DNA of 64,000 bases from Leptolyngbya boryana PCC 6306 (GTDB taxonomy: Bacteria; Cyanobacteriota; Cyanobacteriia; Leptolyngbyales; Leptolyngbyaceae), in the NCBI RefSeq assembly GCF_000353285.1, contig NZ_KB731324.1, positions 6,041,018 through 6,105,017 of the forward strand. Reading direction: 5' to 3'. The position numbers were made by a program, and so were the translations under genes. The notes under the pieces are model-generated. The model ran no database searches. It was not told where the DNA came from and saw only the letters and a list, made by a program, of their open reading frames with translations. Shown piece by piece: positions 29,159 to 33,046 of this stretch. Positions within the stretch are counted from its first letter, which is position 1. Each line of letters starts with the position of its first letter.

Positions 29159-29632
29159 ATGGCACTTCTCACCACAGGCGGACAGCTAATTAAAGATCTT
29201 GAAACCCACGGCGCGATCGCTGCCTATGTTCCCCTCGAAGGCGGATTTGAAGGACGCTATCGCCGTCGAATCCGGTCGGCAGGTTACAAGTCGCTCAGCA
29301 TTACGGCAAGAGGTTTAGGGGATGTGGCGGCTTATCTGACGGGAGTCCATGGCGTTCGTCCTCCGCATTTGGGCAAAAAGAGCACCGGATCGGGTGCGGC
29401 GGTTGGATATACCTATTTCGTTCCGCCGATCGTGACGAGTCAAATTGCTCACTTGCCACCGAAGTCGAAGGGATTATTGCTTTGGATTATTGAGGGACAT
29501 ATTCTGTCGAATCAAGAGCTTGAGTATTTAGCGAACTTGCCGAAGATTGAGCCGCGAGTGAAGGTTGTGATTGAAGTCGGTGGAGAGCGATATTTCCGCT
29601 GGTCACCGCTGACTCAAGTGATTGCGGCGTAA
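29159..29632 (+). CDS. ndhN: NAD(P)H-quinone oxidoreductase subunit N
   Basis: 157 residues, subunit of the cyanobacterial NDH-1 complex in thylakoid and plasma membranes, which feeds ferredoxin electrons into plastoquinone for respiration and cyclic flow. The conserved YVPLEGGFEGRYRRR (about 24-38), ARGLGDVAAYLTGVHGVRPP (about 50-69) and SKGLLLWIIEGHILSNQE (about 103-120) are hallmarks of NdhN, a peripheral oxygenic-photosynthesis-specific subunit. Length is normal. A GGAAGG sequence about 12 bases before the ATG can serve as ribosome-binding site. Its 3' end is overlapped antisense by the extended DUF3122 frame. Confidence 0.95.
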   Translation: MALLTTGGQLIKDLETHGAIAAYVPLEGGFEGRYRRRIRSAGYKSLSITARGLGDVAAYLTGVHGVRPPHLGKKSTGSGAAVGYTYFVPPIVTSQIAHLPPKSKGLLLWIIEGHILSNQELEYLANLPKIEPRVKVVIEVGGERYFRWSPLTQVIAA

Positions 29633-30209
29633 GTCTGAGAATTTTTCTTTGAGTTTGAAGGAGCGATCGACAAAAACTCGATCGCTCCTTTACTGATCTA
29701 TAGGAGTCGTTAATCTCCTCCTCCGGCTGCCAACTTGCCACTCGCCACCATTCCAATGCCGTGTCTTGGGGAACCTTTAACCGCGCTTCTCCAGATTTCA
29801 GGGGCAGAATTAAAGTGAGTTTTGTGTCAGTATCTAACTGGTTCAAGATAGGTTTGAAATCATATTCGCCCACATGAGCGATCGGGAAATCTTTCGAGGT
29901 CACATCCTCAATGCTCAAGAGCGATCGATTGGCTTCAAGTTCTAACGATCGCGGATGATCGATCGTCACCGCTCCAGGAAATCCCACTAATCTTAAATGA
30001 ACTGAATTGGGCTGTCCGAGCGGAAATCGTTTATAAAAAACCACTTGCCAGGCTCGATTTGAGTCATCTTGTAATCTTGATAGCGATCGATACAATACGC
30101 TATTTTGATCCGAATAAGTATGAACCGAAGCAAATGCAGAAGTCGAGACAAAAAGCCAAATTACTCCGACTAAAACGCAAGTTTTCCACAAGCGAAACAG
30201 ATTTTCCAC
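29487..30209 (-). CDS. DUF3122 exported protein with unusual 3' extension
   Basis: 240 residues from a GTG at 30209. Signal peptide 1-28 (hydrophobic, AFASVH). Residues 30-160 match the cyanobacterial DUF3122 family as recalled: HTYSDQNSVLYRSLSRLQD, WQVVFYKRF, HLRLVGFPGAV, the acidic Ig-like strand section and a closing LEWWRVASWQP. The family normally ends there. In this copy the frame continues about 75 codons with low-complexity sequence, passes through the hairpin at 29658-29690 and runs 146 bases into ndhN antisense. The extension is probably not an evolved domain; a lost stop codon or an indel in the GAGGAGGAG codons (near 29725) is likely. The second of three DnaA boxes overlaps the GTG start. 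Confidence 0.7.
   Translation of the reverse strand: MENLFRLWKTCVLVGVIWLFVSTSAFASVHTYSDQNSVLYRSLSRLQDDSNRAWQVVFYKRFPLGQPNSVHLRLVGFPGAVTIDHPRSLELEANRSLLSIEDVTSKDFPIAHVGEYDFKPILNQLDTDTKLTLILPLKSGEARLKVPQDTALEWWRVASWQPEEEINDSYRSVKERSSFCRSLLQTQRKILRLTPQSLESAVTSGNIALHRLQSQPSLAAQSSASSLNTQALDSTEYVPQ
29658..29690. terminator. Hairpin between ndhN and DUF3122 gene
   Basis: AAGGAGCGATCGA (29658-29670) and TCGATCGCTCCTT (29678-29690) are perfect 13-base inverted repeats around a 7-base loop, 26 bases after the ndhN stop. The T-tracts on either side are weak, but position and strength fit a bidirectional terminator for the two converging genes. Confidence 0.6.
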
Positions 30210-30232
30210 AGCTTATTCACCGGTTTTCCACA
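30182..30232 (+). other. Cluster of three DnaA-box sequences
   Basis: TTTTCCACA occurs exactly at 30182-30190, 30202-30210 and 30224-30232, all in the same orientation, with start spacings of 20 and 22 bases (about two helical turns). An AT-rich stretch follows from about 30233 to 30330. TTTTCCACA is the form of DnaA box reported for cyanobacterial origins. dnaA and dnaN are not in the window. Either a replication origin or a DnaA-controlled regulatory region. Confidence 0.55.
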
Positions 30233-30317
30233 ATTTGAATTTTATAATTTAAGACTTTAGTCTGTCATTAAAATTACGCTCGAAAAAACACTGAGAAACA
30301 CATCAATTAAGCGTTTT

Positions 30318-31214
30318 TTAATATTCTTTATCTAGCTCAATCTCGCGCTTTTCAGTCAAAATCATCGCAATCTGTTTTTCGTAGTAAGCAGCTTCGTTAA
30401 TAAAAATTGGAAAAACTGTAGAGTTGCCTTGATAACGAATCGATTCTCCCGCAAAAGTCAGAAAGATCGGCTCATCAGGCTGTAACGGTTCATAGTCTTT
30501 GAACTGGCGATCAGGATGAATGAAAGCTTGTAGATTCCCGATCGCGTCTCTGGGATAATCGATAGCCTCGATCGCTTGATACAACGTCAAACGAGACGGC
30601 ACATCCAGTGGTTTTCCTTGATTCAAAGCTTCGATGTAATCCAAAACGGCGTAAATGAGTTGCTCGGTTTTGAGGAATAGATCAGCGTTGAGAACACTCT
30701 GAGCCACTGCTCCAACTTCAATCGTGAAGCCCAAGGGCGAGAGCGATCGCAATAACGGCGCATCTTGCGTACAATTCATTCCTAAAGCCACTCGCACATC
30801 CGGATAAATCTGGCTCAAATAAGCAGAGAGTCGCAGATTAAAGGGATCAGGAGTCGAAGGAAGAATCGTCAGCCCCATATTCGACGTGGTGCTATGCAGA
30901 TCGATAATCACATCTACTTGAGGCTGATCTCTAGAACCAAGTTGAGCGACAATATCCCGCGCACGTTGATTCTCATAGTTGATCAATTTGGGATTCAATA
31001 AATCCTCGCTGGCAAAGCTTCGATTCAAGTCTTGATCGATATAGCGGCGATTTAGTTCGATCGCTTTTGGATTTGCCAAGAGTGTGATGGTTTCAAAGCT
31101 CGATCGAGTCGTCAATGCTGGAAATTGCTGAAACTTTTTGACGAGATAAACGCCTGTCCATTCATTTCCATGCGTTCCGCCGACAATTGCGACTCGTCGA
31201 ATCAACTTAGACAT
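30318..31214 (-). CDS. Aspartoacylase-like zinc amidohydrolase
   Basis: The ATG at 31214 is preceded by AGGGGGA about 9 bases upstream and begins MSKLIRRVAIVGGTHGNEWTG, so it is preferred over the TTG at 31241; 298 residues. Zinc ligands of the M14/AspA fold are visible as His15 and Glu18 (GGTHGNEWTG) and His107 (DLHSTTSNMG). DQDLNRSF (60-67) is the substrate-carboxylate motif, and TIEVGAVAQ near 165-173 holds the catalytic Glu. The family cleaves N-acetylaspartate or N-acyl aromatic amino acids; the cyanobacterial branch is often annotated as aspartoacylase, but the real substrate is open. Cytoplasmic. Lies downstream of guaA on the same strand but beyond a terminator. Confidence 0.85.
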   Translation of the reverse strand: MSKLIRRVAIVGGTHGNEWTGVYLVKKFQQFPALTTRSSFETITLLANPKAIELNRRYIDQDLNRSFASEDLLNPKLINYENQRARDIVAQLGSRDQPQVDVIIDLHSTTSNMGLTILPSTPDPFNLRLSAYLSQIYPDVRVALGMNCTQDAPLLRSLSPLGFTIEVGAVAQSVLNADLFLKTEQLIYAVLDYIEALNQGKPLDVPSRLTLYQAIEAIDYPRDAIGNLQAFIHPDRQFKDYEPLQPDEPIFLTFAGESIRYQGNSTVFPIFINEAAYYEKQIAMILTEKREIELDKEY

Positions 31215-31269
31215 AACAATTCCCCCTCTGTGTGACTGCAATAATTGGGGGTCTGAACCAATGGGAAAA

Positions 31270-31318: not shown

Positions 31319-32944
31319 CTATTCCCACTCGATAGTTCCAGGCGGCTTCGAGGTGATGTCATACACGACTCGATTCACACCCTTCACTTCATTCACAATT
31401 CGGTTAGAAATCGTTTCTAACAAATCGTAAGGAATGCGTGCCCAATCCGCTGTCATGCCATCTTCACTCTTCACACAGCGCAGCACGATCGGATAAGCAT
31501 AAGTGCGCTGATCTCCCATTACACCGACACTGCGGACAGGAAGCAGCACAGCAAAGGCTTGCCAAACATCGTGATAGATGCCAGCCCGATTGATCTCTTG
31601 CCGCACAATCAAATCTGCATCGCGCAAGATATTTAACTTCTCATTCGTCACTTCTCCCAAAATCCGGATCGCTAGACCTGGACCAGGGAAGGGTTGACGA
31701 TTGACGATTTCTTCAGGCAGACCAATCGATCGCCCAACTTTCCGCACTTCATCCTTAAACAGCTTCCGCAACGGTTCAACCAGCTTGAATTGCAGATCTT
31801 TCGGCAGCCCGCCTACGTTGTGATGGCTCTTGATCTTAACAGCGACTCGTTCTCCGGTCTGAGGATCAACATTGGTATCCGCAGATTCGATCACATCGGG
31901 GTACAACGTTCCTTGAGCCAGATAGTCAAACGGCCCCAATCGCTTCGATTCTTCTTCAAACACTCGGATAAATTCATGTCCGATGCGTTTGCGTTTTTCC
32001 TCTGGATCGGTGATGCCTGCGATCGCGTCAACAAATCGCTCCCGCGCATTCACATACGCAACATCAATGTGGAACTGCTCATGGAAAAGTTTCACCAGAC
32101 GCTCTGGCTCTAACTTCCGCATGAAGCCTTGATCGATGAACATACAAGTCAGTTGATCCCCGATCGCGCGATGCAGCAAAAATGCCAGCGTCGAAGAATC
32201 AACGCCACCCGATAAAGCCAGCAGCACCCGCTTATCGCCAATTTTGGCGCGAATTTCTCGAATCGATTCTTCAACAAATGCTTCCGTTGTCCAAGTCGGC
32301 TCACACTTACAGATGTGATAGACAAAGTTGCGAATCAGCGCTTGTCCAAATTGCGAATGCACGACTTCGGGATGGAACTGCACGCCGTACAGATTGCGAT
32401 CGTGTTCTGCGATCGCCGCGCAAGGTGTATTCGTCGTATGGGCGAGTAAGCCAAATCCTTCTGGCAACTTGGTCACAGAATCTCCGTGACTCATCCACAT
32501 GATCGAGTTATCTTCGACATTCGTCAGCAAATCGGTGGGGTCGTCGATCTCAATCTTTGCCTTTCCATATTCACCGCGATCGGTGCGCTCAACGCTACCG
32601 CCAAGCTGTTGCACCATCAACTGCATCCCGTAACAAACCCCTAAAACAGGAATGCCAAGCTCCCAAATCCCTGGATCGCACTGAGGTGCGCCTTGGTCGT
32701 AAACCGAGTTAGGGCCACCCGACAAAATAATGCCTTTCGGATTGAGTTGGCGGAGTTGTTCAACCGTTGTGCGATAAGACAACACTTCAGAATAAACTTG
32801 CGTTTCGCGGATGCGACGGGCAATCAGTTCTGAGTATTGCGATCCAAAATCGAGAATTACAATCATCTGGCGTTCGAGTGCATCAAATCCTTGCGAAGTA
32901 GATGCGGGTGCATCCAAAACAGACGGTTCAATAGGTGGAGTCAC
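31319..32944 (-). CDS. guaA: GMP synthase (glutamine-hydrolysing)
   Basis: Converts XMP to GMP with glutamine and ATP. The frame is open to a TTG at 33019; no ATG occurs before the amidotransferase domain, and GTG at 32944 gives an N-terminus of the length I recall for cyanobacterial GuaA (TPPIEPSVL); 541 residues. The class I glutaminase domain has the nucleophile in [11 protein letters not shown] and His/Glu in [11 protein letters not shown]. The ATP pyrophosphatase domain has [15 protein letters not shown]. The C-terminal dimerisation domain ends with the usual PPGTIEWE, which binds XMP. Follows cbiD by about 100 bases on the same strand. Confidence 0.97.
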
Positions 32945-33046
32945 GAGAGTGTGTCCTGATGAGAGAGAACGAAAATCAAACGAGGTTAAACGAACTTTTG
33001 AAGCGGAATAAAAAAGCAAGGGTTTTGAATATTCTGGCTATTTTAA

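Follow-up and report, generated by a model that had tools for sequence, protein, structure and literature searches.

The three DnaA boxes clustered in this part of the Leptolyngbya boryana genome are best read, with moderate confidence, as a non-origin DnaA-binding site in which three high-affinity boxes of one orientation, lying on one face of the helix, are fixed downstream of guaA in many cyanobacterial families, and the cluster probably has a part in regulating how much DnaA is present or how active it is. The anchor that is in fact conserved lies on the 3' side of guaA, a relationship beyond what the first-pass annotation of this DNA saw. The window (the whole stretch of 64,000 nucleotides that was analysed) corresponds to C1:6041018-6105017 of a genome of 7.26 Mb in five contigs, all of which was searched. 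The features concerned are as follows (positions are those of the window):

30182-30190, plus strand: DnaA box 1, TTTTCCACA, within the DUF3122 coding start region; kept in 8/8 genomes of the genus
30202-30210, plus strand: DnaA box 2, TTTTCCACA, over the GTG codon at which the DUF3122 ORF starts; kept in 8/8 in the genus
30224-30232, plus strand: DnaA box 3, TTTTCCACA, immediately upstream of the DUF3122 ORF; kept in 8/8 in the genus
30182-30232, plus strand: three-box DnaA-box cluster of the guaA-linked class, on the strand opposite to guaA
29487-30209, minus strand: DUF3122 ORF with a signal-peptide-like N-terminus (Pfam PF11320, E=1.1e-36), its start overlapped by the cluster
30239-30268, minus strand: promoter-like match for DUF3122, ATGACA-18-TAAAAT, 10/12 (consensus match only)
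30318-31241, minus strand: aspartoacylase-type AstE/AspA gene, which in this genome separates guaA from the cluster
31319-33019, minus strand: guaA (GMP synthase), the conserved anchor; the cluster is 3' of guaA
33047-34126, minus strand: cbiD, next to guaA on its upstream side; the guaA-type loci fetched from other genera keep this order

The boxes are exact copies, beginning at 30182, 30202 and 30224 on one strand, of a 9-mer that perfectly matches the cyanobacterial DnaA box (PMC4674748), and their start-to-start distances of 20 and 22 bp confirm the spacing of two helical turns that had been reported for them. Along the minus strand the order is cbiD, guaA, the aspartoacylase-type gene, the cluster and DUF3122, with ndhN convergent.

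Position of the cluster relative to guaA

Close pairs of perfect boxes were found in 66 of 77 relatives, compared with no control pairs in all 77; the genomes lacking any close perfect pair are G013, G036, G042, G052, G054-G057, G066, G073 and G074. The fetched cluster loci sort into a few shared neighbourhoods. Among 184 clusters from 65 genomes, 53 are at dnaN, 38 precede hemJ, 26 precede a PD-(D/E)XK nuclease gene and 35 lie at most 3 kb from guaA. Every one of these 35 lies downstream of guaA (19-1090 bp past its stop codon) with the boxes on the other strand, where random placement of clusters in 6-Mb genomes would put 0.22 within 3 kb. Since this cluster-based survey preselects perfect pairs, and since related genomes are not independent events, the test was repeated from guaA itself using two protein-based samples blind to the boxes, one around the window's genome and one around a distant family. 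In 38 of 54 distinct genomes, at least two, and usually three, perfect boxes closely follow the end of guaA and are on the opposite strand, with spacings of 21+20 bp (14), 21+31 bp (9) or 21+21 bp (4). The families with a guaA cluster are f1, f3, f7, f18, f19, f24, f25 and f28 in these samples, together with f8 from the cluster-based survey. Across all clusters, spacings have maxima at 11, 21, 31, 42, 52, 63 and 74 bp and so keep a phase of 10.5 bp (vector length 0.82). Structured RNAs from Rfam had no match in six loci, including the one covering the window's cluster (L056), and the literature searched, which was thin on subscription journals, yielded no mention of guaA-, DUF2811- or DUF3122-linked DnaA boxes in cyanobacteria.

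The gene beyond the cluster is variable, and the next ORF is convergent with guaA in 22 of 37 loci scored by a mechanical ORF scan, so that the boxes usually have no promoter to control. In two genomes (G005 and G007) the cluster accompanies DUF3122, with guaA on a different contig, while in a third (G031) a cluster of the same spacing is found beside DUF3318 with guaA elsewhere. The boxes are therefore not a guaA promoter, and their persistence without guaA, combined with the variable neighbour, indicates an element kept for itself.

DnaA-box roadblocks occur at E. coli asnC, and DnaA on the opposite-facing boxes could by the same means end guaA transcription or insulate the convergent neighbour, thereby linking GMP synthesis to DnaA. 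This explanation, which is rather unlikely, would account for the invariant orientation to guaA, the short distance past its stop codon and the ORF, mostly convergent, that follows the cluster. In E. coli, a DnaA box is likewise tied to GMP-synthesis genes and DnaA binds and down-regulates the guaB promoter (PMC2885671); the E. coli site, however, is a repressing one within the guaB promoter, whereas the cyanobacterial site is 3' of guaA and separable from it. As the main role of the cluster, control of guaA transcription is weakened by the three genomes in which cluster and guaA are apart, and a whole AspA gene separates the two in the window. The absence of the cluster from 16 of the 54 guaA loci, some of them within the same family, argues further against a roadblock, and it also counts against the preferred reading, a non-origin DnaA-binding site. 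So does the invariant orientation to guaA, which a pure sink would not need and which inheritance of the region as a block explains simply.

Boxes at the start of the DUF3122 gene

The boxes had been described as upstream of DUF3122, which is not strictly the case, as box 2 lies on the GTG start and box 1 in the first codons. Their conservation there has a narrow range. In eight genomes of the genus, whose DUF3122 loci were found by protein search regardless of boxes, 24 of 24 boxes are perfect and in the same place, with spacings of 20 and 21-22 bp, but at 26 DUF3122 loci outside the genus there is no perfect box. The surrounding DNA has diverged within the genus (pairwise identity of 0.54 in the spacer between boxes 1 and 2, and 0.58 at third codon positions elsewhere), and the perfect genus boxes amid diverged spacers, together with the many guaA loci that carry the cluster, indicate maintenance by selection.

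A distance of 7 bp separates the end of the promoter-like match from box 3, and the putative DUF3122 transcript start would fall at that box. Because boxes 1-3 span this putative transcription start and the start codon, bound DnaA should repress DUF3122, within the genus only. That the boxes exist for this purpose, as an operator repressing a secreted-protein gene with the cell cycle, is unlikely, even though the arrangement holds in all eight genomes and the cluster remains with DUF3122 in the absence of guaA in G005 and G007. Outside the genus the same cluster adjoins guaA with other or convergent neighbours, DUF3122 genes have no perfect box nearby, and the boxes are thus not at the start of the same gene in all members of the class. 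Repression of DUF3122 would be at most a local side effect, and DUF3122 as a conserved partner holds within the genus only.

The DUF3122 ORF also continues (29487-29632) antisense into the 3' end of ndhN, and relatives have matches to its final ~50 residues at separate sites, away from their DUF3122, as expected for ndhN antisense.

Chance, and the question of an origin

A chance repeat, or a site for another protein that shares the 9-mer by accident, is very improbable, although DnaA binding at the locus is a prediction from sequence. Under a first-order Markov model, the window should contain 0.89 copies of the 9-mer per 64 kb, and the two further single copies listed by the first-pass annotation are indeed exact (19940 and 33367, both on the minus strand). 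Under the same model, 1500 simulations produced no same-strand pair within 60 bp, and when the letters of the 9-mer were permuted in 150 ways, 2 of the permutations formed pairs at a distance of 14-44 bp in 864 kb of the same genome. Over the whole genome the enrichment of the 9-mer is slight (74 copies versus 55 of the reversed control motif). Its close same-strand pairs, in contrast, are confined to exactly four chromosomal places, and the reversed motif forms none in this whole genome or, as noted above, among the 77 relatives. The four places are the likely oriC, the upstream regions of two DUF2811 genes and the guaA site at 6.07 Mb. The marking of oriC by the same 9-mer with the same phasing argues against a different protein.

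Least probable of all is a replication origin, main or secondary, which the first-pass annotation had put forward as a candidate and against which a fuller cluster elsewhere counts. The gene dnaN is located at C1:4074733, and the six boxes on both strands just upstream of it (C1:4074371-4074698), ~2.0 Mb from the window's cluster, are the likely oriC, since a dnaN-linked box cluster is the usual cyanobacterial oriC (PMC4674748); clusters occupy this position in 53 of 63 genomes with clusters. The reported absence of dnaA and dnaN from the window was correct, with dnaA at C1:6141213 (70 kb away) and dnaN 2.0 Mb away, and neither gene adjoins the cluster. Three perfect boxes do form a cluster of the kind expected at an origin, and three suffice in some predicted cyanobacterial oriCs (PMC4674748). 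The AT-rich stretch described beside them exists, but it is confined to this strain and the nearest of its relatives; among 27 homologous loci it is not conserved and the flanks average 51-56% AT, so that no conserved unwinding region adjoins the boxes. The guaA site thus shares with oriC the same box and the same 10.5-bp phasing, but differs in having three boxes on one strand, rather than boxes on both strands beside dnaN. GC skew, sampled as 40 x 20 kb, displayed no inflection at 6.07 Mb, a result that is uninformative in itself, as the best arm contrast anywhere (0.018) was below that of shuffles (0.025 at 95%), and that is weak evidence because cyanobacterial skew is often irregular (PMC7198777). 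Firing from several places, as in Synechocystis and Nostoc PCC 7120, could in principle accommodate a further origin; in those cyanobacteria, however, multi-origin replication is DnaA-independent (PMC7198777), so boxes are not needed for such firing.

Probable DnaA control and other box clusters

Conservation of the site lends support to the alternative put forward together with the origin, a locus that titrates DnaA or is regulatory, with DnaA binding itself inferred. According to the preferred reading as a non-origin site, DnaA would occupy the three boxes next to one another, probably in oligomeric form, and the site would act either as a sink or as a locus that changes DnaA activity, in the manner of the Bacillus DnaA-box clusters or of E. 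coli datA/DARS. It would thereby set the quantity of active DnaA reaching the dnaN-linked oriC. The boxes, their phasing, position and orientation, and their conservation despite changing spacers and neighbours are observed directly; occupancy by DnaA, oligomerisation and any effect on initiation are predictions made from these patterns.

Several known systems provide partial parallels. The guaA site consists of several close DnaA boxes away from oriC, as do the non-origin DnaA-box clusters (DBCs) of Bacillus subtilis, loss of six of which leads to early initiation (PMC5295017); unlike the DBCs, the cyanobacterial cluster keeps one position past guaA in different families and has head-to-tail boxes with 10.5-bp phasing. 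E. coli datA, also non-coding, carries several DnaA boxes of high affinity and restrains initiation (PMC5295017), but its boxes number five, it depends on IHF and it stimulates the hydrolysis of DnaA-ATP, whereas the cyanobacterial site usually has three boxes. DARS1 and DARS2 of E. coli contain a conserved core of three DnaA boxes outside oriC (PMC4245941), the number also present in the window; the DARS cores serve to regenerate ATP-DnaA, with both IHF and Fis involved at DARS2. While the placement of datA and DARS matters in E. coli (PMC5295017), no conserved distance from oriC was found for the cyanobacterial site, which in 10 genomes lies anywhere between 0.06 and 0.82 of a replichore away, and this counts against a strict parallel with the two E. 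coli systems.

A short site that keeps one gene address across many families offers a handle on DnaA control in cyanobacteria, and Leptolyngbya boryana is genetically workable, making a direct test of such control possible there. Cyanobacteria are often polyploid, and several lineages replicate independently of DnaA. A broader interpretation, which must be considered doubtful, is that cyanobacteria throughout the phylum may share DnaA loci at constant places outside the origin, 3' of guaA and ahead of two genes for small DUF2811 proteins, which together would constitute a DnaA control circuit, in which the guaA site would couple initiation to GMP/GTP supply and DUF2811 would be a DnaA-responsive regulator.

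The clusters assigned above to hemJ and to the PD-(D/E)XK nuclease gene are in reality ~240-600 bp upstream, on the same strand, of a gene for a small DUF2811 protein (~50-66 residues) that stands between, and DUF2811 therefore replaces both genes as the cluster partner. Two DUF2811 paralogues are encoded in the window's genome, and the linked clusters are at L046:9382-9954 (G000 C1, ~4.380 Mb) and L044:9632-10179 (~0.626 Mb). DUF2811-linked clusters recur in ~40 fetched loci across families, and the protein appears, by eye only, ribbon-helix-helix-like. The guaA loci fetched at 8 kb contain no DUF2811 gene. In three genomes in which no hemJ was found (G070, G063 and G060), the hemJ position, with the same box cluster and DUF2811, is occupied by a flavin amine-oxidase-type, HemY/HemG-like gene (L238:4613-6016, L276:1891-3327 and L278:4491-6011, respectively). 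The products are protoporphyrinogen oxidase-like and unrelated to HemJ, which has apparently been swapped in place.

A further box cluster is present near a sigma-70 family gene in G028, G035, G019 and the distant G050 (L210:4001-5199, L289, L290 and L284). The cluster is upstream of this gene in L210, L289 and L290, and a DnaA-controlled sigma factor is possible at these loci.
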